This document shows, piece after piece, positions 1-14,537 of a stretch of 57,536 bases of DNA (position 1 is the stretch's first letter; each line of letters opens with the position of its first letter). The translations under genes were made by a program, and so were the position numbers. The notes beneath the pieces are model-generated. The model was not told the DNA's origin, did no database searches, and saw nothing but the letters and a program-made list of their open reading frames with translations. The DNA is taken from positions 1 to 57,536 of the forward strand of contig CAIXCY010000078.1 of NCBI GenBank assembly GCA_903918045.1, given 5' to 3'. Origin of the DNA: an uncultured Bacteroidia bacterium (GTDB lineage: Bacteria > Bacteroidota > Bacteroidia > Bacteroidales > Prolixibacteraceae).

Positions 1-928
1 CGGCTTAGAAAACAACGACCTAAAACTTATAATTTTTGGCGGGAAAGGTGGTGTTGGAAAAACCAGTTGTGCCATAGCAAGTGCCCTTGCACTGTCTGAG
101 CGTTTCAAAACGTTGCTGATTTCAACCGATCCGGCACACTCTGTTTCAGATTGCCTCGAACAACAGATTGGATTTAAGGTGGTTCCGATCAACGGGAACG
201 AAAATCTTTCTGCAATTGAAGTGGTTGCTGAAAAGGCGCTTTCGGCTTTTAAATCGGAACATCAGGATCAGATGAAGAAACTGCTCGAAACCTCAACAAA
301 TCTCGACAGTGAGGATATCGATTCGATGCTCACCCTTACAATTCCGGGAATTGATGAAGTGATGAGCTTTAAAACAATTATCGATTTTATAGAGGAGGGA
401 AACTTTGAAAAATATATTGTTGATACCGCTCCCACTGGTCACGCCTTAAGACTGATTTCATCGCCCAGATTGCTTGATGAATGGATTAAGGTGGCAGCCA
501 AAATGAGGTGGAAATACCGTTATATGGTCACCAGCTTCGCCGGATCATACCATCAGGATGAGGTGGATACTTTCCTTTTCAACCTGAAAAAAACGGTTAA
601 ACGAATCGAGAACCTCCTGCGTGATAAGGCAAAATGCGAATTTATACCGGTCTGTATTCCGGAAGCAATGGCAATTCTGGAAACCGAAAGACTCCTTTCT
701 GACCTACAAAAAACAGATATCATTCCAAAACAGCTCATCGTAAATAATGTGATGATATCGGATGAGGGTGATTTCTGCAAACGAAGGAAAGCAAGCCAAT
801 TACCTTATCTGCAAGAAATTAATAACACTTTTGGCCATTTAAATCAAGTAGAAGTGCCAATGTTTGCAGAACAGATAAAAGGGATGGAATCTTTATTAAA
901 ACTGAAACTGGAATTGATCGGTTCATAA
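1..928 (+). CDS. ArsA/Get3-family ATPase, 5'-partial, gas-vesicle operon
   Basis: The reading frame is open from base 2, so the gene starts upstream of the window; the TTG at 113 is internal. The first visible residues contain the deviant Walker A GGKGGVGKTS. They are followed by STDPAHSVSDC (switch I of ArsA/Get3) and DTAPTGHALRLISSP (switch II). The C-terminal part has the family's VNN motif and an FCKRR segment, with a single Cys instead of a CxxC zinc clasp. Family members are dimeric ATPases that pump arsenite with ArsB or deliver hydrophobic tail-anchored proteins (Get3). There is no ars gene nearby. The stop lies 18 bp before the Cdc48-like ATPase of a gas-vesicle operon, so I infer a chaperone or targeting role for hydrophobic gas-vesicle proteins. 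Family assignment is firm; the role is inference. Confidence 0.9.
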   Translation, partial: GLENNDLKLIIFGGKGGVGKTSCAIASALALSERFKTLLISTDPAHSVSDCLEQQIGFKVVPINGNENLSAIEVVAEKALSAFKSEHQDQMKKLLETSTNLDSEDIDSMLTLTIPGIDEVMSFKTIIDFIEEGNFEKYIVDTAPTGHALRLISSPRLLDEWIKVAAKMRWKYRYMVTSFAGSYHQDEVDTFLFNLKKTVKRIENLLRDKAKCEFIPVCIPEAMAILETERLLSDLQKTDIIPKQLIVNNVMISDEGDFCKRRKASQLPYLQEINNTFGHLNQVEVPMFAEQIKGMESLLKLKLELIGS

Positions 929-946
929 AAAACAAATTATATTGGG

Positions 947-3100
947 ATGAAAGAAGAAATTTCACTAAGGGTAAAAGAGGCCCTTGTAAAGGATGTAGGG
1001 CGGGCAATTGCAAGAATCGATCCCAAAGAGATGAAGGAATTAGCCCTTGAGAGTGGTGACGTTGTAATCATTGAAGGTAAACGGGTCACACCGGTCAAAA
1101 TAATGCCCTGTTTTCCTGAGGACCGGGATAAGGGGATCATTCAGATTGATGGAATTACACGTGAAAATGGGCTTGTTGGAATTGATGAAAAGGTAAAAAT
1201 CAGCCGCTCAGCATGCCGTCAAGCGACCAAAATAAAGCTCAAACCAGATACAAAATCAGGATCACTTTTTAAGGCAGATGATGCAAAATACATTGGATCA
1301 CTTATCAACGGCCTGTCAGTTACCAAAGGGGATAAAGTCCGCGCCAGTTTGTTTGGATCACGCACCGTTGAATATACGGTAACGGGTACCAGTCCGGAGG
1401 GAGTGGTACTGATAAACCCCAATACATCATTTCAGCTTGAATTAGCCAAACAGGACGGGGTGACTAAAAGCAAAGTTTCGTATGAGGATATCGGGGGGCT
1501 GGGAAACCAGGTTCAACGGATCCGCGAAATGATCGAACTTCCGCTTAAATATCCTGAAATTTTTGAACGGCTTGGCGTTCAGCCACCAAAGGGTGTCTTT
1601 CTTTATGGTCCTCCGGGAACTGGCAAGACACTAATCGTAAGAGCTGTAGCCCATGAAACGGATGCTTATTTCATCAATATCTCAGGGCCCGAAATAATGG
1701 GTAAGTTTTATGGTGAGAGTGAAGGGAGGATCCGCAAACTCTTTGAAGAGGCTCAGGCTCATTCCCCATCGATTATTTTCATTGACGAAATCGATGCCAT
1801 TGCCCCGAAAAGGGAAGATATGGGTGGCGAAAAACAGGTTGAGAAACGTGTTGTAGCCCAACTGCTATCGTTAATGGATGGGTTGGAATCGCGCGGAAAG
1901 GTTATTGTAATTGGTGCCACAAACATTCCAAATTCTATTGATCCCGCATTAAGGAGACCTGGTAGGTTTGACCGCGAAATCTCAATCTCTATTCCCGATA
2001 AAAAAGGGAGACTCGAAATTCTGCATATTCATACCCGGGGAATTCCACTCTCGATGGATGTCGATATGGAGAAACTGGCAGAGATCACCCATGGCTTCGT
2101 TGGCGCCGATCTCGAAGCATTAGCCAGAGAGGCGGCGATGACGGCATTGCGCAAGATTCTGCCTCAGATAGATTTTGAAATGGCAGAAATCCCTTATGAG
2201 TTGCTTATGTCGCTCGAAGTCACGATGGATAATTTCCTTGATGCGATGAAGGAGGTAGAACCCTCAGCTATCCGGGAAGTCTTTGTTGAGGTACCTGATG
2301 TAAAATGGAATGATGTTGGCGGATTGGATGACATTAAGGAGGCGTTAAAGGAGACTGTTGAGTGGCCTCTTAAATACGCAGAGTTGTTCAAAAAAGCAGA
2401 CACCAAACCGCCAAAGGGGATTATCCTTCATGGACGACCAGGAACCGGAAAAACATATCTGGCAAAGGCCCTGGCAAGCGAAAGCGGAGTTAATTTCATT
2501 TCTGTAAAAGGGCCGCAGATTTTAAGCCGCTATATTGGGGAATCCGAAAAAGGGGTGAGGGAATTGTTCCGAATGGCAAAGCAGGCCTCACCATGCATCC
2601 TTTTTCTTGATGAAATCGATAGTTTAACCCCCAGGCGTACAAGTGATGGATCAGGTTCAGGAGTAATCGAGCGGGTAATCGGACAGTTTCTCACCGAAAT
2701 GGATGGTATCGAAGACCTTAAGGGGGTGATCGTACTGGCAGCGACTAACCGCATCGATCTTATTGACCCTGCCCTTCTGCGCAGTGGCCGATTCGATCTG
2801 ATCTTTGAATTGCCTTCACCGGATATAAAAACCAGGGAAAAGATATTCGAAATCCATACCCGAAATAAACCACTTGGAAAGAAAATCCAACTCAATAAAC
2901 TGGCATTGAAAACAGAAGGGCTTACCGGTTCGGATATTGAATTTATCTGTCGTAAAGCAGCTATGCTGGCGATCCGAAGCCTTATAGACCAAACCCGCAC
3001 AACATCATCTGAAGTCCCCGGTGAAATAATAATCCTTGAGAAACACTTCGACGAGGCAATAAATCTGGTTTTAACACAAAATCTGACGAAGAGACAATAG
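947..3100 (+). CDS. Cdc48/VAT-like double AAA+ ATPase
   Basis: 717 residues with the full Cdc48/VAT layout. The N-terminal double-psi-barrel is at about 1-90 ([20 protein letters not shown]) and the second N subdomain at about 100-170. D1 has Walker A GPPGTGKT at 221-228, pore loop GKFYGES, Walker B IIFIDEID at 276-283 and arginine fingers near 336-340. D2 has Walker A at 496-503, pore loop LSRYIGES and Walker B ILFLDEID at 551-558. D2 Walker A reads GRPGTGKT: the usual second residue Pro is Arg, but the catalytic Lys and both Walker B acids are intact. Cdc48/VAT are hexameric unfoldases and disaggregases. The gene follows the ArsA-like gene by 18 bp and precedes four gvpF/L genes, so the substrate is probably a gas-vesicle protein (inference). 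It is not GvpN, which is a single-domain MoxR-type AAA+. Confidence 0.95.
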
Positions 3101-3130
3101 ATATAATCGCAACCCTCAAACTACATAACC

Positions 3131-4171
3131 ATGACTACAAAAGGAATTTACATCTACGGAATTATCCCGAACTTCTACAGTGCAGATATGTTCAGGTCGC
3201 TCGAAAATGCAGGGGTTTATGCTATCCCGTTTCAAAATATTTCAGCTATTGTTTCAGACCGTGAGAGTACAATTCTTGACTACACAGACCGGGAAACTCT
3301 GGGGCATCTTTTGATCAATCATCAAAAAACGATTGAAGTGATGGTCACCAGCGGATTCACGATGATTATTCCGATGCGCCTTGGGACAATTGTGAATTCA
3401 AAGGAGGAAGTTTTCACAATTCTGGCCAACGGACACGATCTGATGATGGATGTGCTCAAGAAGATGCAATTTCTTACGGAGCTGGATATTGTCGTTACAT
3501 GGGCAGATTTTCCGGCAACACTCAACGAACTAGCTGATGATCCTGAAATTATTGCAATAAAAGAGGAGATTTTTAAAACCGCCGCGACCCCATCCCAAGT
3601 CGACCAGGTAAAGTTAGGAATGGCGGTCCAGACCAAATTAAAAGAAAAAAACCTCAAGGTTGAATTAAAGATTCTGGAGTCCTTATCTACATTCAGCATC
3701 GATATAAAAACCCATGAAGTGATGAATGACCAGATGATTACAAATTCTGCATTTCTGATTAACCGAAGTAAAAAGGAGAATTTTGAAAGAGTCATTGATC
3801 AGCTTGATGAAGAGTTTAATGGAATGCTGAACTTTAAACTGGTTGGGCCACTACCCTGCTATAGCTTTTATACGATTGAAATGAAAGAACTTAATCCTGA
3901 TCACATCGCTGAGGCAAAACTGGAACTTGGCTTAAGTGAAGAGACTACAGAATCCGAAATCAAAAAAATTTACCTGAATAAGGCGCGCCTTTGTCATCCG
4001 GATAACATAGAGGGTAAGGGAAATGAGGAAAAATTTCAAAAAATAAGCACTGCCTATCACACAATTCTGGATTATAGCGTAGCCGCAAGGCAATCCTCGA
4101 AGGACGATTTAATCTCTCTGAAAGGCGATTCGGTAATTAAAAATCTGTTTTTAGTTAAAATAAAAGAATAA
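3131..4171 (+). CDS. gvpF/L: GvpF/GvpL family protein fused to a C-terminal J domain
   Basis: 346 residues, about 85 longer than its paralogs in this operon. Residues 1-250 are a GvpF/L module: start GIYIYGIIP, central PMRLGTI (family PxRFGT), then NSAFLINRS and GPLPCYSFY. GvpF/L proteins are minor gas-vesicle proteins that bind GvpA and help start vesicle growth. Residues about 260-320 form a J domain: helix II with ESEIKKIYLNKARL, the invariant HPD at 289-291, then EEKFQKISTAYHTILDY as helix III. HPD is what stimulates Hsp70 ATPase, so this protein should be able to recruit DnaK. A basic stretch of about 25 residues follows. It lies 30 bp after the Cdc48-like gene and 22 bp before the next gvpF/L. 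No Shine-Dalgarno precedes the ATG. Confidence 0.9.
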   Translation: MTTKGIYIYGIIPNFYSADMFRSLENAGVYAIPFQNISAIVSDRESTILDYTDRETLGHLLINHQKTIEVMVTSGFTMIIPMRLGTIVNSKEEVFTILANGHDLMMDVLKKMQFLTELDIVVTWADFPATLNELADDPEIIAIKEEIFKTAATPSQVDQVKLGMAVQTKLKEKNLKVELKILESLSTFSIDIKTHEVMNDQMITNSAFLINRSKKENFERVIDQLDEEFNGMLNFKLVGPLPCYSFYTIEMKELNPDHIAEAKLELGLSEETTESEIKKIYLNKARLCHPDNIEGKGNEEKFQKISTAYHTILDYSVAARQSSKDDLISLKGDSVIKNLFLVKIKE

Positions 4172-4193
4172 CCATACAACTAAAAAAATAACC

Positions 4194-4967
4194 ATGCAAC
4201 GAGACGGAAAATACATTTATTGCATTATAGCATCTGATTACGATGTTAACCTGGGCCCTATCGGGGTGGGCGGAAGGGGTGATCTGGTCTCAACGATCGG
4301 GTTCGATGGGTTGTGTATGGTTGTTAGCGACCACCCCCTAAGCAGGTTTGTTGTTAATCCCGACAATATGTTAGCCCACCAGAAGGTAATTGAAGCCGTA
4401 ATGAAGGAATTCAATAGTGTTCTACCCATACGGTTTGGAACAATAGCTGCCACACCCGATGAAATACGCAACCTTCTGAACCGAAGATACAGCGAATTTA
4501 TGGAACTGATCAGGCAATTCGAAAATAAGATTGAAGTTAACGTTCGGGGGACCTGGAAAAATATGGGCAAAATCTATAACGAGATCGATCGCAAACATGC
4601 AGAATTACAAAAAATAAGGGGAGAAATTGAAAATACCGATGACCTGTTGAACCGCAATCTTAAAATCGCTGAAGCAGGGAAACTGGTTGAACAGGCACTG
4701 ATTGAAAAGAAAGAGGAGGAGTCTGCTGAGATTATTGAAGCATTCCGCAAATCAGTCTTTGAGTTTAAACAAAACAAAACAAGCCATGATGCCATGTTTA
4801 TGAATACTGCTTTTTTAATGAACAGCGGAAGGGAGATCGAATTCGACCATATTATGGCTGAACTTGGTTCCCGGTTTGAAAATCGGAGTGATTTCGTTTA
4901 CACAGCGCCACTGCCAATTTTTAATTTTATTGACCTTAAGATTTTCCCTGAAAAATGGGAATTATAA
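4194..4967 (+). CDS. gvpF/L: Gas vesicle protein GvpF/GvpL
   Basis: 257 residues, the normal GvpF/L length. It shows the N-terminal YIYCIIA strand, GPIGVGGRGDLV, VLPIRFGTI in the centre, a charged helical segment at about 110-185, then MNTAFLMN and APLPIFNFIDL at the C-terminus. The GPIG-G-R-DLV segment is shared with the next gene but not with the other two GvpF/L proteins here, so these two look like a tandem duplication. The role known for the family is binding GvpA and nucleating or shaping the gas-vesicle shell. Spacing is 22 bp upstream and 20 bp downstream, which fits one transcript. Confidence 0.92.
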   Translation: MQRDGKYIYCIIASDYDVNLGPIGVGGRGDLVSTIGFDGLCMVVSDHPLSRFVVNPDNMLAHQKVIEAVMKEFNSVLPIRFGTIAATPDEIRNLLNRRYSEFMELIRQFENKIEVNVRGTWKNMGKIYNEIDRKHAELQKIRGEIENTDDLLNRNLKIAEAGKLVEQALIEKKEEESAEIIEAFRKSVFEFKQNKTSHDAMFMNTAFLMNSGREIEFDHIMAELGSRFENRSDFVYTAPLPIFNFIDLKIFPEKWEL

Positions 4968-4987: not shown

Positions 4988-5770
4988 ATGAGCAATTTGC
5001 AGGAAATAGTAAAAGAGGGAAAATATATTTATGGGATTATCCGGAATTCAGAACCACTAAATTATGGCCCGATTGGAATGGGTAAACGGGCCGATCTGGT
5101 ATATTCGATCTGCTTTAAAGGGATAAGTGCCATCGTGAGCAATTCACCGATCATCATCTATGAAGCCCGCCGGGTAAATATGATCACTCATGAAAAGGTT
5201 CTCGAAGAGGTGATGAAACAATTTACTGTACTTCCGGTCAGGTTTTCAACCATCTCTGAACATGATGACGATGCAGGTATACTTCGGATTCTGGAGAAAG
5301 ATTACAAGAAATTCGACGAAATGCTCAATAAGATGGAAGGTAAAAAGGAACTTGGGCTCAAAATACTTGCCAACGAAGCTGCAATATATGAAAGCATCAT
5401 TGATAAGTATGATGAAATCAGGATAATGAGGGGAAAACTAATAAATCTCCCTGCTGATAAGACCCATTATCAACGGATGAAAATTGGCGAAATGGTTGCC
5501 GAAGCGCTTAAAAAGGAGACGGATAATTTTAAAACGTTGATTCTCGATGTCTTAAATCCCCTCTCGGAGGACCAAAAAATAAACGATAACTATGGCGAGA
5601 TGATGATTCTCAATGCCGCATTCTTAATTAAAAACAGCGTTGAGCCTGCCTTTGATAAAGCGGTCAACGATCTGGACGCCAAATTCGGCCACTTAATGAC
5701 CTTTAGATATGTTGGAACTTTACCTCCATATAACTTTGTGAATCTGACAATTAATACGAAAGGAGTCTGA
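4988..5770 (+). CDS. gvpF/L: Gas vesicle protein GvpF/GvpL
   Basis: 260 residues. Family motifs are KYIYGIIRN, GPIGMGKRADLV, the core VLPVRFSTI (Ser replaces the usual Gly), LNAAFLIKN and GTLPPYNFVNL. It is closest, by eye, to the preceding gvpF/L and is probably its tandem duplicate. The central charged helix at about 110-190 is longer in Lys/Glu and has diverged most. Its stop codon overlaps the Shine-Dalgarno region of gvpG, whose ATG begins one base after the stop, so the two are probably translationally coupled. Expected role: accessory shell or nucleation protein of gas vesicles in the cytoplasm. Confidence 0.92.
   Translation: MSNLQEIVKEGKYIYGIIRNSEPLNYGPIGMGKRADLVYSICFKGISAIVSNSPIIIYEARRVNMITHEKVLEEVMKQFTVLPVRFSTISEHDDDAGILRILEKDYKKFDEMLNKMEGKKELGLKILANEAAIYESIIDKYDEIRIMRGKLINLPADKTHYQRMKIGEMVAEALKKETDNFKTLILDVLNPLSEDQKINDNYGEMMILNAAFLIKNSVEPAFDKAVNDLDAKFGHLMTFRYVGTLPPYNFVNLTINTKGV
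5761..5765 (+). promoter_or_regulatory. Strong Shine-Dalgarno of gvpG
   Basis: AGGAG sits 6 nt before the gvpG ATG and just before the stop of the upstream gvpF/L. Most genes in this operon have no Shine-Dalgarno, as is usual in Bacteroidetes, so this site is unusual. It suggests coupled and raised translation of gvpG. Confidence 0.6.
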
Positions 5771-6038: not shown

Positions 6039-6311
6039 ATGAGCAACATTATAGATGTAAAGAAAACTGTCGTTAATTTTCTCAAAGAGAATATCTCATG
6101 CTATGACGTAACGGTTATTAAAATCGAAAAAGTGAAGGAAACCTGGGGTGCAGTGGCTGAAGTTTATGAGGATGACTCCTTTTTAAAATCGATGAACCTC
6201 CCTCCAAAACAAGTCAGATTATTTTATTCCATTAAAATGAATGATAACCTTGAAATTACCTCTTTCGAACGACTTAATTCCTTTGAGGGAATAGATTTTA
6301 CCTCAGAGTAA
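6039..6311 (+). CDS. gvpO: GvpO-like gas vesicle protein
   Basis: 90 residues. The pattern TVIKIEKVKETWGAVAEVYE, then a Pro-containing linker, then VRLFYSIKMNDNLEITSFER follows the GvpO fold. In that fold a Trp-containing strand leads into V-E-V-x-E, a D-x-x-A-x-Y-E-V-like strand follows, and an x-x-Y-x-R end closes the domain. GvpO is a small accessory protein linked to gas-vesicle formation or gvp expression. This copy is short, lacking the charged N-terminal extension of actinobacterial and haloarchaeal GvpO. It sits between gvpG and another gvpF/L, which supports the call, but the sequence match is weak enough that a related small Gvp protein remains possible. Confidence 0.65.
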   Translation: MSNIIDVKKTVVNFLKENISCYDVTVIKIEKVKETWGAVAEVYEDDSFLKSMNLPPKQVRLFYSIKMNDNLEITSFERLNSFEGIDFTSE

Positions 6312-6332: not shown

Positions 6333-7124
6333 ATGCAGAATTCACTAATATATCTGTATTGTGCGGGTAACAGTCCGCCTATGTCTCTATTTCACTTAGA
6401 GGAAACCGGGGTGAAATCGCTCAGAATTGATGACTTTTTTGTGATTTTCAAGGATGTGCTGGCTGTAGATTTTTCTGAAGAGAATTTTAAACGGCACTTA
6501 TCCGACAAGAAGTGGTCAGAGCTCCAGGCAAGGGAGCATGCTATGGTAATCTCCCTGATTATGGAGAGTTCTGAAGTTATCCCTTTTAAATTTGGTACTA
6601 TATTCCATTCAATATCAAGTTTAAAGAAATTCATTATAGATAATTCGGATATTTTAAGGGAAAAAACAGTATCAATCGGTGGCAGGGAAGAATGGACGAT
6701 TCAGGTTTTCTGCAACCGTAAAGTATTATACAAACAAATTGACGAGATGAGTGTCCAGGCTGCTAAATTGGAAAAAGAGATTATGGCCTCATCTCCTGGA
6801 AAAGCCTATCTTTTAAAACAAAAGAAAACAGAGTTGATCAAAAATGAGATGGACCGGATCTGTAAGGATTATGGTCTGCAATACTTAGACCAATTTAGCA
6901 ATCTGAGTGATTCATTCAACCAAAACAACCTTCTCCCAAAGGAGTTTACCGGACGGGAGGATACGATGATTGTCAATGCAACCTTCCTTGTAAACAAAAA
7001 AAGAGTACCCAATTTTAAAGAAATCTTTGAGATACGAGGTAAGAGGGATAAAAATCAAGGATTCTTTTCTAAACTTCAAGGACCCTGCCCCCCATTTAGC
7101 TTTGTCTCTTTTAACAGGGAATAG
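6333..7124 (+). CDS. gvpF/L: Divergent gas vesicle protein GvpF/GvpL
   Basis: 263 residues and the most divergent of the four paralogs. The N-terminal strand is SLIYLYCAGN. The central family motif is VIPFKFGTIF, and the C-terminal motifs are VNATFLVNK and GPCPPFSFVSF. The middle is a long Lys/Glu-rich helix at about 110-190. The start ATG is 21 bp after the gvpO-like stop, so it probably closes the same transcript. The next gene, a histidine kinase, is more than 100 bp further on. Function beyond the family role (GvpA binding and vesicle nucleation) cannot be assigned. Confidence 0.88.
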   Translation: MQNSLIYLYCAGNSPPMSLFHLEETGVKSLRIDDFFVIFKDVLAVDFSEENFKRHLSDKKWSELQAREHAMVISLIMESSEVIPFKFGTIFHSISSLKKFIIDNSDILREKTVSIGGREEWTIQVFCNRKVLYKQIDEMSVQAAKLEKEIMASSPGKAYLLKQKKTELIKNEMDRICKDYGLQYLDQFSNLSDSFNQNNLLPKEFTGREDTMIVNATFLVNKKRVPNFKEIFEIRGKRDKNQGFFSKLQGPCPPFSFVSFNRE

Positions 7125-7179
7125 CCGTTGTAATTTCGATATAAGATTTTAAAAGAGACTGATTTTTGAATTGTTTTGA

Positions 7180-7187
7180 TAACTTTG
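7180..7187 (+). promoter_or_regulatory. Candidate Bacteroidetes promoter -7 element
   Basis: TAACTTTG matches the Bacteroidetes -7 consensus TAnnTTTG and lies 45 bp before the kinase ATG at 7232. No well-spaced TTTG -33 box is visible. If used, it would give the kinase its own transcript and would exclude the in-frame TTG at 7166 as its start. Confidence 0.4.
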
Positions 7188-7231
7188 TCAGTACTCTCCT
7201 GCAATTTCTGTGTACCAACCATTTGAAAAGC

Positions 7232-9787
7232 ATGATAAACAAAATTAGTCCGAATGCCTCTAAAATTCGCCGAATGGCAGAGGAACTTCTGAAAAAGGGG
7301 AATTCTGTCTCCTCTTTACCAGTTGGACCTGAACTGGACCAATCCCCTGCCCTTTTACAATCAGAAATACAGAGACTCCTGTATGAACTCGAAGTTCATC
7401 GGACAGAGTTAAAAATGCAGAATGATGAACTTATTTTAACCAAAAATAATGCTCAGAAGATCGCTGAGAAATATACAAAACTATTCGATTTTGCCCCTTT
7501 TGGCTATTTCACGCTCTCCAGACGGGGAGAGATTATGGAACTAAATCACTGTGGAGCAGCAATGTTGGGGCGGCCCCGTTCACTTTTAAAAAAGAGCCGA
7601 TTTGGTTTTTTTGTGAATGCCAAAACCAGACCGAGTTTTAATCAGTTTCTTGGTAACTTATTTAGTACCAAAGAAAAGGGATTCTGTAAACTAACCCTGG
7701 CTTTGGATGGGAATAACACTATCGATCTTTTCATCACAGGGACACTTGACGATACTGAAGAACTCTGCCTTGTAACTGCAGTAGATATTACATCAAGCAG
7801 AAGAACAGAGGATTCATTAAATAGGAGTGAAGAAAAATACAGAACAATCTTTGAAAATATCCAGGATGTATTTTACCAAACCAACCTGGCCGGTGAAGTC
7901 CTCGAAATCAGCCCTGGCATCAGGGAATTTTCAGAATTCGGCAGAGAAGAGATAATTGGATTCCCGGTTCAGAACCTCTATTACAATCCCGATGAACGTC
8001 AGGACCTGCTAATAGCCATTACAAAGAGAGGCGAACTTCATGATTATGAATTACAGATTAAAACTAAAACCGGAAAGAAAAAGATTGTTTCGATAAATGC
8101 GAAGCTTATTTTTAATGCCAGTGGGGTGGCCGATCATATCGATGGTTCGATGAGGGATATCACGCGCCGTACACAAGCAGAAGAGGAGGTTAAAAAACTA
8201 CAGAAAGCCATCGAAAACTCAAATACTTCAATAATTATAACCGATAAAAAAGGGAATATTGAATATGCAAATCCTTACTTTACTCATTTAACCGGCTATA
8301 CCCGGGAGGAATATACCGGTAAAAATCCGAATGTATTGAAATCGGGGTACCACTCCGTTGCATTTTATACGGATTTGTGGCAAACAATTCAGTCAGGCCA
8401 GACCTGGGAAGGTGAGTTTTACAACCGGAAAAAAGATGGCCATTTTTTTTGGGAGAATGCAGTTATTTCGCCGGTTCAAAATGAAAAAAATGAGATCACC
8501 CATTACGTCGCCATTAAAACCGATATTACCGCAGCTAAGAAGATCAATGAAGAATTAATAAATGCCAAGTTACGCGCCGAAGAGAGCGACAATCTTAAAA
8601 CCGCTTTTCTGAACAATATTTCTCACGAAATCAGAACCCCTTTTAACGGAATACTGGGTTTTCTTTCCATCCTTCAAAACGACGACCTAACCTCAGATGA
8701 AAGGGTGGAATATAATAAAATCATCTCTGAAAGTGCCTACAGGCTAATGAATACAATCAATGATATTGCTGAGGTTTCAGCGATGCAGGCGGGAAAGTTA
8801 AATGTTACAGAATCAGAGGTAACCATCAGTCAGCTTATTGAAGAACTTACAAGCCATTTTACCAATGATCTGAATAAAAAAGAGTTATTGTTTACGATTA
8901 CCAATGAGCTGCCCAAAAATGTGACCTTTATCTATACTGACAGGCTAAAGCTTAATACGATCCTGAACAATCTGCTTAGTAATGCAATAAAGTTTACATT
9001 CTGCGGCACTATTGGATTGGAGATTCGGTTGAAAGGATCCCAAAGCGACGGGGATCAAACGATCTATCAGCGGAGTTACGTTCCGGAGGACGCCGACACT
9101 ATTCCTTCAAACCCTCTCCAATCTTTACCTCTGATAGAATTTGCCGTTAGAGATACCGGAATTGGTATTCCTGAAAATAAGCAGCAAGCCATTTTCGAAC
9201 GGTTTATTCAGGCAGATAGTTCAAATACACGGAAATTTGAAGGATCAGGTTTGGGAACTACAATTGCCAAGGCCTATGTTGAAGCACTTGGAGGGGCTAT
9301 TCGGGTTGAAAGTAAGGAAGGAAATGGTTCGTTATTCAGCTTTACAATTCCCTTCATCACTGAATCGAAAGAGAAGCTAGCCCTCAAACATAAATATCCG
9401 GGGAAAATGGGTAACATGGTTAATCCTTTAAAAATATTGATAGCAGAAGACGATGAAACCTCCTTAATGTTCCTTGAAACGGTGGTTAAGCCCTATGCTA
9501 AAGCGGTTTTAATTGCAAAAACCGGTCAGGAGGCAGTAAGAATCTGCACCATTAATCCTGACATTGATTTGGTCCTAATGGATATCCAAATGCCAGTTTT
9601 GAACGGAAACGATGCGACATGTCAAATCAGGCTTTTTAATTCAACTGTAATAATAATTGCTCAAACTGCCCATGCTCTGGCTGCTGATACAGAAAAAGCA
9701 AAAATATCGGGATGCAATGATTTTATCTCAAAGCCCATTCAAAAAGGACAACTAATTGCATTATTGCATAAATATTTCAGTTCGTAA
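7232..9787 (+). CDS. Cytoplasmic PAS hybrid sensor histidine kinase
   Basis: 851 residues from the ATG at 7232. The frame is open to a TTG at 7166, but the extra 22 residues are Cys/Phe-rich, unlike the family, and overlap a promoter-like element. Order: N-terminal helix; PAS about 80-205 (FDFAPFGYFTL); PAS about 205-325; PAS about 326-450; HisKA with SHEIRTPFNG, phospho-His 465; HATPase_c about 568-705 with DTGIGIPE and GSGLGTTIAKA; receiver about 734-850 with LMDIQMP, phospho-Asp 784, and the conserved SKPI Lys. There are no membrane segments or HPt, so the sensor is cytoplasmic and the final output partner is not encoded here. It lies 107 bp after the last gvp gene, so it could regulate buoyancy, but this is context only. 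Confidence 0.93.
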   Translation: MINKISPNASKIRRMAEELLKKGNSVSSLPVGPELDQSPALLQSEIQRLLYELEVHRTELKMQNDELILTKNNAQKIAEKYTKLFDFAPFGYFTLSRRGEIMELNHCGAAMLGRPRSLLKKSRFGFFVNAKTRPSFNQFLGNLFSTKEKGFCKLTLALDGNNTIDLFITGTLDDTEELCLVTAVDITSSRRTEDSLNRSEEKYRTIFENIQDVFYQTNLAGEVLEISPGIREFSEFGREEIIGFPVQNLYYNPDERQDLLIAITKRGELHDYELQIKTKTGKKKIVSINAKLIFNASGVADHIDGSMRDITRRTQAEEEVKKLQKAIENSNTSIIITDKKGNIEYANPYFTHLTGYTREEYTGKNPNVLKSGYHSVAFYTDLWQTIQSGQTWEGEFYNRKKDGHFFWENAVISPVQNEKNEITHYVAIKTDITAAKKINEELINAKLRAEESDNLKTAFLNNISHEIRTPFNGILGFLSILQNDDLTSDERVEYNKIISESAYRLMNTINDIAEVSAMQAGKLNVTESEVTISQLIEELTSHFTNDLNKKELLFTITNELPKNVTFIYTDRLKLNTILNNLLSNAIKFTFCGTIGLEIRLKGSQSDGDQTIYQRSYVPEDADTIPSNPLQSLPLIEFAVRDTGIGIPENKQQAIFERFIQADSSNTRKFEGSGLGTTIAKAYVEALGGAIRVESKEGNGSLFSFTIPFITESKEKLALKHKYPGKMGNMVNPLKILIAEDDETSLMFLETVVKPYAKAVLIAKTGQEAVRICTINPDIDLVLMDIQMPVLNGNDATCQIRLFNSTVIIIAQTAHALAADTEKAKISGCNDFISKPIQKGQLIALLHKYFSS

Positions 9788-9940
9788 AATGGTTAAACTA
9801 AATCTTCTAAATTTAGCTGTTAACTTCCAATTTTATTGTATTTTGCATTACTTTTCTAATCAACTCGCTGATCCGCAATATTAGTCATAACTAACTGGAT
9901 TTAAAATAATTATAACTGACAATAATCTTTAGCTTACTCC

Positions 9941-12913
9941 TTGAAACCGATTTTAATCAAATATAAAAATTTACTCCCGGCCTCGACATTTAAAAATTCC
10001 TGGAGAGCTTTTTTTATTTTGGTAATTGGCCTCGGTCTAACAGGAATAGCTACGTTTTATGCCCAAAGAAAGGTTGAAAGTGATGCAAAACAGGAATTTG
10101 CATTAAATTGTAATGAGATAAAGATAAAAACAGCGAACCGTCTAAGGGCATGCGCTCAACTTTTGCAAACAGCTTCCGCTTTTTTTGCAGCATCCGATAC
10201 TGTTACCCGTGAACAATGGAAAATATTTAATCAGAATGCCAAATACGAAAAAATATTACCTGGTATTCAGGGACTTGGATATACTTTACTGGTTACCAAA
10301 GATCAGTTAAAACAACATTTAAAGAAAATCCGGTTGGAGGGTTTTCCCAATTATAAGATATGGCCTGAAGGGGAAGGTAAAATATATACCCCGGTCATTT
10401 ATCTGGAACCTTTTGCGGGCCGAAATCTAAATGTTCCAGGATATAATGGATTTTCAGATTCTACACGAAGAAAAGCGATGGAAATATCGCGGGATTCTGA
10501 TTTTGCAACCCTCTCGGGGAAGGTGATACTAGTACAAAATGAAGAAAACGACTTGCAATCCGGAATAGTGATGTTTGTTCCGGTTTACCATAAAGGGATG
10601 GCCCTACATACCGTTGAACAACGGCGTGCTGCGATTAAAGGTTGGATTTACAGCCCCTATCATTTGAACGATTTAATGCTCGGGATCTTAGGCCATTGGG
10701 ATCTTGAAAAGCCGAACAGAATTCGTTTGCAGATTTACGAGGATCAGATTACCAATTCCTCCTTAATCTATGACAGTCAAGGCAAAGAAAATAAGATCCG
10801 CAAATATCCGCAATCCAGAACTTTAACGCTACAGATCAAACCGTACGAAAAGAAGTGGATATTACAGTTTTCACAATCGGATCCCCATTATTTTTATTTT
10901 CAAAAACTCGTGACTATCGTCTTCGTAACCGGGATTTTCATAAGTTTATTATTGTTTTTGTTGTCCTTCTCTTTATTCAATACCAGAGGGAACGCTCAGC
11001 GAATAGCCTCTGTTTTGACCGCCGAGCTCAAAGAGAGTGAACACCGGATAAGGGAGGTACTGGAAAATTCGTTGGATGCATCCTACAAACGGAATCTGAT
11101 AACCCATAGCTATGATTATCTGAGTCCCGCCTATTCCAGGATCTCAGGTTATTCGGCAGATCAGATGGGAACAATGCCAATTGAAACGATAATTGAACTC
11201 ATGCACCCCGATGATGTACCTGAGGTGAACCGGATCATCGCGTTGTCATTGGCTGAGACTTCCATAACCACATACCAGTTGGAATACCGTTTCAGGCATA
11301 AAGAGGGAAGCTATCGGTGGTTTCATGATAAATATACCGTACTGAGAAACCTTCAGGGAGAGCCAGAAGCGTTGATTGGTAGTGTGAGCGATATCTCCGA
11401 CCGTAAAATGATCGAGGAAGCATTAAGTAATGAACGATTTCTGCTACGTACCTTAATCGATAATATTCCTGATTCGATCTATTGCATGGACCTTGAATGC
11501 CGCAAGACGCTGGCGAATATTACAGATTTAAGGTATATGGGGGCAGCAACTGAGGCTGAAGTTTTAGGAAAGAATGATTATGATTTTTACCCTCAGGAAC
11601 TTGCGGAAGAATTCATACGAATAGACAGAATGGTCATGCAAAGCGGCGAACCACTTCTTAACTGTGAAGAATATTTGTTTGATGAGAAGGGTGGAAAAAA
11701 ATGGTTGCTCTCCTCCAAAATTCCGTTGAGAAATGAAGAGGGAAAAGTTACAGGACTTCTAGGGATTGGGCGTGATATCACCGATCGCAAACTGGCGGAG
11801 GAGGCTCAGCGCGAAAGTGAGAGTCTGTATCGTTCCCTGTTTGAAAATATGCTAAACGGATTTGCCTATTGTCGCATGATATTTGAAGATGGAAAACCAA
11901 GCGATTTTATCTATCTGTCTGTAAATAATGCCTTTGAAACCCAAACTGGTCTTAAAGATGTTATTGGAAAACGGGTTTCTGAGGTCATTCCAGGAATACA
12001 GGAAAGTGATCAACAACTTTTAGAGTTGTATGGTCGTGTTTCCTTAACCGGAAAGGCTGAACAATTTGAATTTTTCTTCGAAGCATTGCAAATGTGGCTT
12101 TCGATATCAGTCTATTGTCCCCTTTACGGGCACTTCGTTGTAGTCTTTGATGTTATAACTGACCGTAAGCAAGCTGAAGAGTTGATCAGAGATAAGAATG
12201 TGCAACTTCAGAGTCTCAATGCTTCAAAAGATAAGTTATTCTCGATCATTGCACACGATTTGCGGAGCCCTTTTAACGGTTTTTTGGGACTTACACAAAT
12301 AATGGCGGAGGACCTCTCTGCATTGACAAGGGATGAGATCCGCGAGATGGCGGAGTCGATGCGAAATTCCGCTGCCACACTTTACCGGTTACTCGAAAAC
12401 CTGCTGCAATGGTCAACTCTTCAGCAGGGACGGATGGTGTTTAATCCGGTGATCATACCTTTAAACACTATTTTAACCGAAATTATGGCAATTGCAAAAC
12501 TATCTGCCAACATGAAGGAGATCGAAATAGAATGCCAGATTCCATATATTTTAGAAGTTTATGCAGACGTAAAAATGGTTCAGACTATCCTCCGCAACCT
12601 GATTTCAAATGCAATAAAATTCACCAATAAAGGGGGGAAAATCACAATCGCGGCCCGGCCAATCGATGAGTTAACTACAGAAATATCGATTAATGACAGT
12701 GGGATCGGTATGAGTCAAACAATTATCAACGGACTCTTTCAGATGGATATTAACACAAGCCGCAAGGGTACGGAGGGAGAAACCAGCACAGGACTAGGTC
12801 TTTTGATATGTAGCGACTTTATCGAAAAGAACGGTGGCAAACTTAGGGTTGAGAGTAAGGTTGGTATTGGAAGTACCTTTTATTTTACACTTCCAAACAA
12901 ATTAAGCCTGTAA
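9941..12913 (+). CDS. Membrane-bound CHASE-PAS sensor histidine kinase
   Basis: 990 residues from a TTG start; a stop codon lies 18 bp upstream in frame, the first ATG comes too late to keep TM1, and no Shine-Dalgarno is seen. Order: TM1 about 22-42; periplasmic CHASE domain about 60-290 with the family stretch KYEKILPGIQGLGY; TM2 about 323-346; PAS about 370-495, 500-620 and 630-745; HisKA with IIAHDLRSPFNG, phospho-His 772; HATPase_c to the end with NDSGIGM and STGLGLLICSDF. There is no receiver domain, so it needs a separate response regulator. CHASE domains bind small extracellular ligands such as cytokinin-like compounds or short peptides; the ligand here is unknown. It is convergent with the next kinase (7 bp between stops). 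Confidence 0.92.
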   Translation: MKPILIKYKNLLPASTFKNSWRAFFILVIGLGLTGIATFYAQRKVESDAKQEFALNCNEIKIKTANRLRACAQLLQTASAFFAASDTVTREQWKIFNQNAKYEKILPGIQGLGYTLLVTKDQLKQHLKKIRLEGFPNYKIWPEGEGKIYTPVIYLEPFAGRNLNVPGYNGFSDSTRRKAMEISRDSDFATLSGKVILVQNEENDLQSGIVMFVPVYHKGMALHTVEQRRAAIKGWIYSPYHLNDLMLGILGHWDLEKPNRIRLQIYEDQITNSSLIYDSQGKENKIRKYPQSRTLTLQIKPYEKKWILQFSQSDPHYFYFQKLVTIVFVTGIFISLLLFLLSFSLFNTRGNAQRIASVLTAELKESEHRIREVLENSLDASYKRNLITHSYDYLSPAYSRISGYSADQMGTMPIETIIELMHPDDVPEVNRIIALSLAETSITTYQLEYRFRHKEGSYRWFHDKYTVLRNLQGEPEALIGSVSDISDRKMIEEALSNERFLLRTLIDNIPDSIYCMDLECRKTLANITDLRYMGAATEAEVLGKNDYDFYPQELAEEFIRIDRMVMQSGEPLLNCEEYLFDEKGGKKWLLSSKIPLRNEEGKVTGLLGIGRDITDRKLAEEAQRESESLYRSLFENMLNGFAYCRMIFEDGKPSDFIYLSVNNAFETQTGLKDVIGKRVSEVIPGIQESDQQLLELYGRVSLTGKAEQFEFFFEALQMWLSISVYCPLYGHFVVVFDVITDRKQAEELIRDKNVQLQSLNASKDKLFSIIAHDLRSPFNGFLGLTQIMAEDLSALTRDEIREMAESMRNSAATLYRLLENLLQWSTLQQGRMVFNPVIIPLNTILTEIMAIAKLSANMKEIEIECQIPYILEVYADVKMVQTILRNLISNAIKFTNKGGKITIAARPIDELTTEISINDSGIGMSQTIINGLFQMDINTSRKGTEGETSTGLGLLICSDFIEKNGGKLRVESKVGIGSTFYFTLPNKLSL

Positions 12914-12920
12914 GCCTGAT

Positions 12921-14537
12921 TTATTTTTGATGTAGATTATCGAAAGCCGGGATTGAAATTGTAAAGGTACTCCCCTTCCCGATTTCACTCTCAACCGTTA
13001 TTGTTCCCCCATGAATTTCAGCGAATTCCTTACAAAGAATCAAGCCAAGACCTGTCCCTTTTTCGTTTTCAGTCCCCTTTAAAGTAAAACTGGTTTCGTT
13101 TCTAAATAGTTTTTCGATCTCCTCTTTTCCAATCCCAACACCTGTATCGGAAATTGAAACTTCAAAATGATCGACCTTCATTTTGGCTTCAACATTGATT
13201 TCCCCCCCTTTATTCGTAAACTTTATTGCATTTGAAATCAGGTTCCGAAACATCGAGCACACCATTTTCTCATCGGCAGCAATAATTATTTCTTCGGTTG
13301 TATTGTTTTGTAAGGTAATATTTTTTTTGTCTGCATTATATTGCAATCCCTTTATTTCATTCTCAATCAGCGGATTAATGAAAATTCTCCTGGGCTCAAA
13401 AAGAATACCATTCTGCTGTAATATGGCCCATTCCAGCAGGTTTTCCAACAAATTGAAAGCCTGCTTTGCTGTTGAATTAATGATATCTGCGTATGAAATA
13501 ATCGAATCAATGTCGAGGTTCCGGGCATCCTCCTTTAATATTTCGCTAAATCCTAAGATTCCGTTGAAAGGGGTTTTAAGGTCATGGGCAATAATTGAGA
13601 AGAATTTATCTTTTAGAGCGTTGAGTTCCTTTAAGTTGTTGGTTTGTTCCAAAAGTTTTGCCTCGAAATGCTTACGTTCAGTAATATCGCGGGTTACTCC
13701 CAGTATTGTCACCGAATTACCATCACTGTCGGGCAGGGGGAATACAAAAACTTCGGCGCACCAGGTAGACCCGCCTTTACGATAACACACATTCTCACCG
13801 TGAAACTTTGGCAAGGGTAAACCGGACTCAAAGGCCGAATTCACTTTTTGCAGGTAGTCTGCAACGATAAGCTGAGATTCCGGAGTGAGTAAAATCTCGA
13901 TCGACTGTTCCATAGACTCTTCTACTGTGAAGCCGCTTAATTCCTCAATTGCGGGGCTCATATAGGTCAATGTGCCGTCAAGCTTCATCGTCCAGACCAC
14001 ATCTCTGGCATTTTCAGCCAGCAACCGGTATCGCTCTTCCTTCTGACGTAGCTCTTCTTCCGCCCGTTTTCGCTCGGAGATATCCAGCGAGAGAACCATC
14101 ATCCCTTCAGACACCGGTTCAAGAATGATCAAAAACCATTTAACAGACTTATTTGTAAAGGTATAAGAAGTTTCAAACTTCAACGAAATACGCTCACCCA
14201 TGCATATACGATACATTGCAAAGATTTCTGTATCTTCAATCCCGGGATACATGTCAGCATACCTTCTTCCTATAAGATTTTCAGGTTCCTGAAAGGCCTG
14301 ATGCGCAGCAGATTTATTGACAAAAACATAAGTCCAGTCAAATCCAATAATCATAAATCCTTCAATCAAGGCATCAAGTGCATCCTTGAGCTGCGGTTCG
14401 TTATTATCAAATTCTGCAATGGATCTTGTCTTGAAATCTTTCCCGATACCAGGTGAACGCTTTAGCTCATTATAAGCGGCCTGGAGTTCTGCCAATTCAA
14501 TTTGCAGTTCTTCCTTTGTTTTACCGTTATCGCTCAT
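12921..14537 (-). CDS. PAS sensor histidine kinase
   Basis: 538 residues, no membrane segment. An N-terminal short helix (ELQIELAELQAAYNEL) precedes PAS about 50-160 and PAS about 165-290, with CYRKGGSTW and the connecting VTRDITERK. HisKA follows with SIIAHDLKTPFNG and phospho-His 318. HATPase_c has SDTGVGI and KGTGLGLILCKEF. There is no receiver or HPt. The transmitter resembles that of the preceding CHASE kinase (same IIAHDL-PFNG block), so these two probably arose from a common ancestor. A 417-bp intergenic region containing a dispersed repeat precedes the gene. Ligand and partner are unknown. Confidence 0.92.
   Translation of the reverse strand: MSDNGKTKEELQIELAELQAAYNELKRSPGIGKDFKTRSIAEFDNNEPQLKDALDALIEGFMIIGFDWTYVFVNKSAAHQAFQEPENLIGRRYADMYPGIEDTEIFAMYRICMGERISLKFETSYTFTNKSVKWFLIILEPVSEGMMVLSLDISERKRAEEELRQKEERYRLLAENARDVVWTMKLDGTLTYMSPAIEELSGFTVEESMEQSIEILLTPESQLIVADYLQKVNSAFESGLPLPKFHGENVCYRKGGSTWCAEVFVFPLPDSDGNSVTILGVTRDITERKHFEAKLLEQTNNLKELNALKDKFFSIIAHDLKTPFNGILGFSEILKEDARNLDIDSIISYADIINSTAKQAFNLLENLLEWAILQQNGILFEPRRIFINPLIENEIKGLQYNADKKNITLQNNTTEEIIIAADEKMVCSMFRNLISNAIKFTNKGGEINVEAKMKVDHFEVSISDTGVGIGKEEIEKLFRNETSFTLKGTENEKGTGLGLILCKEFAEIHGGTITVESEIGKGSTFTISIPAFDNLHQK

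Follow-up and report, generated by a model that had tools for sequence, protein, structure and literature searches.

The stretch of DNA analyzed here, in the following called the window, comprises 57,536 nucleotides (contig CAIXCY010000078.1) of an uncultured Bacteroidia bacterium of the Prolixibacteraceae. At positions 3131..4171 it carries a gene with an ATG start for a protein of 346 amino acids in which a gas vesicle protein of the GvpL/GvpF family is fused to a C-terminal J domain. We name this protein J-GvpF; its gene and the other operon genes of the window given below are located on the forward strand. Judged from sequence and genomic context, J-GvpF is most likely a dedicated class C (type III) Hsp40 which brings Hsp70 to shell proteins of the GvpA family. 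The fusion itself had been claimed in an earlier note on this DNA and was borne out by Pfam analysis, since both domains scored above the cut-off. PF06386 covered residues 5-247 (positions 3143..3871) with 158.8 bits (E 3.1e-46, cut-off 23.6) and was matched from profile position 1 to 244 of 245. PF00226 matched residues 266-314 with 43.9 bits (E 2.6e-11, curated cut-off 27.8). A phmmer search against the PDB sequences retrieved two GvpF structures, followed by J domains (44 sequences, E <= 1).

The predicted fold of the C-terminus agrees with this assignment. An AlphaFold2 (AF2) model of J-GvpF exhibited helix I at residues 256-266, helix II at residues 274-288, the loop with the His-Pro-Asp (HPD) motif and helix III at residues 298-322. 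Helices II and III had been predicted before, and the HPD motif was located at exactly the proposed residues 289-291 (positions 3995..4003). A structural match was obtained with 5nro_B, the structural matches being derived from a PDB search which re-ranked Foldseek's own matches. Based on the Pfam match, the AF2 secondary structure and 5nro_B, the J domain was assigned to residues ~257-322 (positions 3899..4096). Thus, the fold of the C-terminus, which had been named beforehand as a possible refuter of the fusion, was predicted to be that of a J domain.

The N-terminal 250 residues of J-GvpF share family and fold with known GvpF/GvpL proteins (PF06386; 6l5d, 4qsg). Compared to the solved GvpFs, which comprise 250 and 253 residues, and to its paralogs in the window, J-GvpF contains ~95 additional residues, namely the J domain followed by a variable spacer and, at the very end, a conserved strand. 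This conserved tail, residues 338-346 (NLFLVKIKE, positions 4142..4168), was recognized by its entropy and by a strand at residues 340-345 of the full-length AF2 model; when modelled without the GvpF domain the same segment became a low-confidence helix. No match to PF00684 was found in J-GvpF by Pfam, and residues 317-346 are not rich in glycine and phenylalanine. Consequently, J-GvpF has neither the G/F linker nor the cysteine-rich domain of a class A DnaJ and belongs to class C. Members of class C, also called type III, are HscB, which serves IscU, auxilin, which serves clathrin, and Tim14/Pam18. Like these proteins J-GvpF consists of one J domain and a putative client-binding domain, without G/F linker and zinc finger. 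Unlike in HscB, auxilin and Tim14, the partner domain is a gas vesicle assembly factor, the J domain is located C-terminally and a conserved strand follows it.

In total, 43 J-GvpF genes were collected from Bacteroidota, Ignavibacteriota, family f19 (probably Chlorobiaceae) and one Octadecabacter plasmid (loci, genomes, families and genera are denoted by codes beginning with L, G, f and g, respectively). A contig search yielded 22 relatives, all of them metagenome-assembled genomes (MAGs) of Bacteroidota or Ignavibacteriota according to their titles; among these L003 and L005 share a bin, and the L016 gene breaks off behind the HPD motif. A survey of 395 genomes of the phylum yielded 29 with a match to the alignment (threshold E <= 1e-15). 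The match extends into the J part in 20 of them; these include the window's own genome, genome G060 with a remnant and G028, in which the gene is split over two contigs. The other nine matches, all from family f30, end at residue 253 or earlier (G079, G125, G133, G137, G237, G272, G288, G338 and G390). In the neighbourhood of the J-less GvpF/L gene of G079 only gvpG was recognized, which suggests a reduced or different gas vesicle-like locus. The fusion was also detected on the complete plasmid NC_020910.1 of the isolate Octadecabacter arcticus 238, where it is annotated as GvpL/GvpF only, and on a single contig of 2,364,842 bases (G075, family f19). Ten plasmid records matched J-GvpF, but only that of Octadecabacter over at least 80% of the length; when the Octadecabacter protein was the query, 28 plasmid records matched, with only the protein itself over at least 80%. 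A scan of viral contigs resulted in five pattern matches, none of which is a relative.

The second possible refuter named beforehand was a lack of HPD conservation in orthologs. The motif is intact in 42 of the 43 genes. The 43 listed rows had contained the window's own gene twice; after one copy was dropped, 42 rows remained besides the half gene L062. H289 is present in 41 of these 42 rows (tyrosine in one), proline and aspartate are found in all 42, and L062 also contains HPD. These rows are not independent, as 19 come from genomes other than the window's and 16 of these 19 belong to genus g60. The only exception, L051 (G060:C33:111399-112274), encodes YPD in a protein truncated at 305 amino acids. 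Within 18.5 kb around L051 (L073) the models found a Cdc48 fragment besides the truncated J-GvpF and no other gvp gene; on this sequence evidence L051/L073 is taken as the remnant of a gas vesicle locus.

Conservation differs along the protein. The mean entropy of 40 rows was 1.59 bits for the GvpF domain, 1.52 for helix II, 0 for HPD, 2.69 for the loop 292-300, 1.55 for helix III, 2.50 for the spacer 317-337 and 1.30 for the tail 338-346. The ratio of nonsynonymous to synonymous substitution rates (dN/dS) was calculated by simple counting for 28 row pairs of ~74% identity or more, which share rows and in which dS is often near saturation. It amounted to 0.058-0.291 in 24 of the 25 calculable pairs for the J domain (0.591 in the remaining pair), 0-0.200 for the tail (26 pairs), 0.077-0.250 for the GvpF domain (28 pairs) and 0.206-1.178 for the spacer (21 pairs). 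The trend indicates purifying selection on J domain and C-terminal strand and much less on the spacer. From 75 GvpF/L domains trimmed to 252 residues a tree was calculated by a quick search without bootstrap; it contained 14 of the 43 J-GvpFs. All 14, including the long-branched Octadecabacter row, were placed on one side of a branch with a Shimodaira-Hasegawa-like approximate likelihood ratio test (SH-aLRT) support of 96. The J state required one change on this tree, compared to 13 in shuffles. Hence one fusion event would suffice to explain the J-bearing GvpFs, although it is not proved thereby.

According to established biochemistry a J domain with an invariant HPD motif implies an Hsp70 partner. 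The earlier note had proposed DnaK for this role, and the proposal gained independent support from relatives which carry an Hsp70 gene inside the gas vesicle operon. Such genes, of ~600 amino acids, follow the gas vesicle genes on the same strand at L010:14973-16778, L017:7007-8806 and L020:14952-16784. With the DnaK of the own genome as query, phmmer scored them at 895-918 bits among 5,938 six-frame reading frames from the operon loci, and PF00012 matched over its full length with 810.4 bits (L010) and 809.3 bits (L017; cut-off 20.6). In L017 ~55 bases separate the gvpK frame from the start of the Hsp70 frame. In L010 and L020 the gene of a cluster 18 protein (L010:14235-14954, the L010 copy without Pfam match) lies between the gas vesicle genes and the Hsp70 gene. 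The contig of L007 ends within the operon, and the second Hsp70 gene of this genome (L101:2498-4378, frame limits) follows gvpF/L and gvpK. A further Hsp70 gene of the L020 genome (L102:7052-8875, reverse strand, frame limits) also follows gvpF/L and gvpK. With the own DnaK as query no Hsp70 was found by phmmer in the other operon loci of the set, including the window's operon; of these L002, L006, L008, L009, L012-L015, L021, L064, L065 and L067-L072 reach at least 2.8 kb past the last recognized gvp gene.

A PF00012 search in the genomes of 12 relatives revealed more than one DnaK-like Hsp70 for L010, L017, L020 and L007 and a single one for L002, L006, L008, L012, L013, L014 and L022. The L021 genome contains one DnaK and a divergent match of 233 bits, the window's genome one DnaK and a match of 37 bits. 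In the L017 genome the other Hsp70 matches are contig-edge pieces, one of which ends like a housekeeping DnaK. The five operon-linked Hsp70s formed one clade (support 100/100) apart from 13 housekeeping copies. Three of them were compared and showed 75-84% identity to one another and 68-69% identity to the DnaK of their own genome. The linked copies match the full DnaK profile (two tested) but are shorter and end near 600 amino acids; the disordered tail and the EEVK-type end seen in complete housekeeping copies are missing. The four relatives thereby resemble the HscB/HscA system, in which HscB has the dedicated, operon-linked Hsp70 HscA. In Psychromonas ingrahamii the DnaK-like genes 1232 and 1233 are found near the gas vesicle cluster 1248-1262, as far as the available part of PMC2405808 shows.

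The J-GvpFs of the four genomes with linked Hsp70 share Q282 and E287 in helix II of the J domain, which occur in none of the 37 other rows; nine genomes of these 37 rows were examined for Hsp70, and none has a linked copy. R279 is also present in helix II of all four. In the linked Hsp70s the hairpin GNGIFEV contains asparagine at position 207 in all five copies, in contrast to aspartate or glutamate in all 13 housekeeping copies. We take this hairpin, which holds positions 207 and 209, to be the J-docking site of Hsp70. A strict filter gave nine columns with fixed differences between linked and housekeeping Hsp70s, one of which is V209I (own numbering) in the same hairpin; the exchange at position 207 fails this filter because the housekeeping copies mix aspartate and glutamate. 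An acid was thus lost in the Hsp70 hairpin while one was gained in the J helix, which is suggestive, and no more, of co-adaptation. In the GvpF tree L007, L010 and L020 grouped together (100/96) and L017 stood apart with weak support; a single clade of all four was not rejected by the approximately unbiased (AU) test (p 0.084). Since two state changes suffice and one clade is not rejected, the covariation represents one or two events, and independent origins are not claimed.

The shell protein is reported to have GvpF as its main partner, and a chaperone role of GvpF has been proposed (PMC11445434, PMC9501494); its action would fall early, possibly co-translationally (PMC11445434; the available part does not mention 'dnak'). 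By analogy with this GvpF-GvpA binding in other organisms, we infer that the GvpF domain of J-GvpF holds a gas vesicle client, most likely GvpA or a minor shell protein of the GvpA family. The J domain would dock ATP-bound Hsp70 and trigger hydrolysis via its HPD motif, as established for J domains. Subsequently, Hsp70 would clamp the hydrophobic segment which the client exposes. The client would stay soluble, or would be extracted from off-pathway oligomers, until it passes to the J-less GvpF/L paralogs and the nucleation complex. In the organism of the window the Hsp70 partner is presumably the housekeeping DnaK, in the four relatives it would be the operon-encoded tail-less DnaK paralog. 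In view of two AF2 runs, the chain probably returns to the GvpF sheet with its C-terminal strand, which would hold the J domain in a loop of fixed geometry. The strand may even represent a latch which keeps the J domain locked until a shell protein has been loaded.

The J-GvpF gene starts 30 bases past a gene for a Cdc48-family AAA+ ATPase (947..3100; TIGR01243, 922 bits, cut-off 802.65) and is separated by 22 bases from the gvpF/L gene that follows; due to these short distances an operon is likely. Upstream of the Cdc48 gene an ArsA/Get3-like ATPase (1..928; PF02374, 208.6 bits) is cut by the contig start; its frame of 308 amino acids is open to the contig start, and the first start codon of the open reading frame lies at position 113. 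Downstream, three GvpL/GvpF paralogs are encoded at 4194..4967, 4988..5770 and 6333..7124 (PF06386, 180, 203 and 134 bits, respectively). None of them matches DnaJ at E <= 1 or contains HPD, which agrees with the earlier statement that the sister proteins lack a J domain. A protein of 90 amino acids at 6039..6311 is GvpO-like according to its conserved place in the operon, with 16.1 bits for PF05800 (below the cut-off of 25). The operon is split by the contig end. Its 5' half was found on another contig of this genome, C137, which ends with the 141 bases that open the window. C137 encodes two GvpA proteins, GvpN, a fourth GvpF/L without J domain and HPD, a fusion of GvpK and a GvpA-family protein, a further GvpA-family protein and Hsp20, the latter thus sharing the operon with J-GvpF. 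A zinc-finger protein and several small or coiled-coil-like proteins without clear family are also encoded there; the families on C137 were assigned by Pfam on the own or the relatives' copies. Membership in a gas vesicle cluster is evident from gvpA, gvpN, gvpG, gvpK and more gvpF/L genes in the own or the relatives' cluster. Cdc48 is the next recognized gene upstream of J-GvpF in all 29 covered loci of the Bacteroidota/Ignavibacteriota type, a count which excludes the window and the remnant L073, both also with Cdc48.

The constant neighbourhood of the unfoldase Cdc48 and the Hsp20 gene in the operon would also fit a role of J-GvpF at the other end of the life of a gas vesicle. It might recruit Hsp70 for disassembly or quality control, that is for the removal of GvpF/L, GvpN or misassembled GvpA or for the recycling of collapsed shells, possibly together with Cdc48. 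Auxilin, which recruits Hsc70 for the uncoating of clathrin, is a parallel. We consider this role unlikely, as the GvpF data in the available part of PMC11445434 indicate an early, possibly co-translational step, and the Octadecabacter J-GvpF lies in a stretch of 17 kb without Cdc48 or ArsA. The latter stretch also rules out a general dependence of J-GvpF on a neighbouring Cdc48. Loss of cooperation with Hsp70, the J domain serving as a structural or dimerization module like Tim16, is far less probable still. Tim16 has lost the HPD motif. In contrast, J-GvpF lost it solely in the truncated remnant, and four genomes have an Hsp70 gene in the gas vesicle operon. Finally, although the window's assembly consists of 281 contigs with 3.99% contamination and the 22 relatives of the contig search are all MAGs, chance resemblance (excluded by the DnaJ E-value together with the HPD conservation), a gene-calling artefact and a chimeric assembly are ruled out by 43 genes, among them the complete isolate plasmid and the contig of 2,364,842 bases, and by the constraint on the J part.

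Several observations weigh against a function of J-GvpF as an Hsp40 for the shell protein. After residue 322 the helix IV of canonical DnaJ was not recognizable by eye. The net charge of helix II is +1.56 on average (range 0 to +5, n=41), compared to +3 for the DnaJ of the window's genome; this could mean weak or specialized docking. The J domain of Octadecabacter reached 28.0 bits, barely above the cut-off of 27.8. Moreover, the Hsp70 link was observed in four of the 13 genomes examined, and its covariation with helix II goes back to one or two events. J-less GvpF/L proteins exist in nine of the ten plasmid records and in the nine f30 genomes; therefore, the J step cannot be universal.

The zinc-finger protein of C137 (L032:13921-14226; G000:C137:73917-74225) comprises ~103 amino acids and contains DnaJ-type CXXCXGXG motifs without a J domain. 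It was found in 11 further loci. Its gene is located between the GvpC-like gene and gvpN in 11 of the 14 Bacteroidia/Ignavibacteria loci, own genome included, where the models find both of these genes (it is absent in L006, L012 and L020), and it is absent in all eight such loci of families f17-f19. Canonical DnaJ has four CXXC motifs, and BSD2 is a stand-alone chaperone of the DnaJ zinc-finger type. In contrast to DnaJ, the operon protein has six CXXC motifs in its complete copies (11 of 13 frames, the others being a cut copy and a second L007 frame with four), and the J domain sits on another protein of the gas vesicle operon. Four of five tested proteins exceeded the PF00684 cut-off of 32.7 bits (33.1-37.6), the fifth reached 32.5. 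A PDB profile search gave DnaJ zinc fingers only, with weak matches (three sequences, best E 0.0092); weaker matches to anti-TRAP were also found. It could possibly be the second part of an Hsp40 split in two, or a regulator similar to anti-TRAP. In the phylum survey it was detected in one of 395 genomes, the window's own, compared to 20 of 395 for J-GvpF; thus, it is not an obligate partner of J-GvpF. A tentative joint reading, to which we give somewhat less than even weight as a whole, is that gas vesicles own an Hsp70/Hsp40 machine made up of the J domain on GvpF, the cysteine-rich protein, which is often separate, and, in some Bacteroidia, a private tail-less Hsp70, in which hairpin acid loss and E287 gain would mark a co-adapted, insulated pair of Hsp70 and J-GvpF, and which with Hsp20, Cdc48 and the Get3-like ATPase would form an organelle-specific chaperone relay.

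Some further features of the operons were recorded. The fusion of a GvpA-family domain with GvpK comprises 177 amino acids at L032:16619-17152 in the own genome (83.6 and 38.6 bits) and at L010:5461-5994 (82.7 and 39.4 bits). Conserved operon proteins without Pfam match above the cut-off are encoded at L014:1851-2459, 2502-3677, 4088-4273 and 5383-5697 and by their L032 counterparts; the second of these L014 proteins, of ~390 amino acids, is coiled-coil-like and stands in the place of GvpC. The gvp operon of the window is directly followed by genes for three predicted sensor histidine kinases of large size (7166-14537), as judged by eye. Large genes of the same cluster also follow the operon in several relatives' loci.

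Full-text literature searches gave no description of a GvpF-J domain fusion, with incomplete coverage and with the possibility that domain databases list the architecture; the earlier statement that no such fusion has been described held within this range. Gas vesicle operons with arsA and hsp20 were reported for Polaribacter, Pelodictyon luteolum and Geobacter (PMC2963123). They are of the same kind and contain several L/F paralogs, but 'dnaj' and 'cdc48' do not occur in the text of the paper, and no fused J domain is described in its available part. As far as the following sources were available, 'dnaj' is not mentioned in PMC4982088 or PMC9501494, and PMC2405808 describes no GvpF-J fusion. 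In the accessible parts of the remaining two, dnaJ is a separate Streptomyces stress gene (PMC2631018), or the subject is unrelated (PMC3610870).

How the very hydrophobic GvpA avoids aggregation and reaches the growing shell is an open question in gas vesicle assembly. The occurrence of the J-GvpF fusion across several bacterial groups, together with the operon Hsp70, provides independent evolutionary support for GvpF as a chaperone of GvpA. Fusion and operon Hsp70 would name the ATP-driven partner and tie the building of the floats to the folding machinery of the cell. A single residue change in the HPD motif makes this proposal directly testable. Gas vesicle gene clusters are used as acoustic reporters, and their engineering may possibly benefit from such a chaperone.
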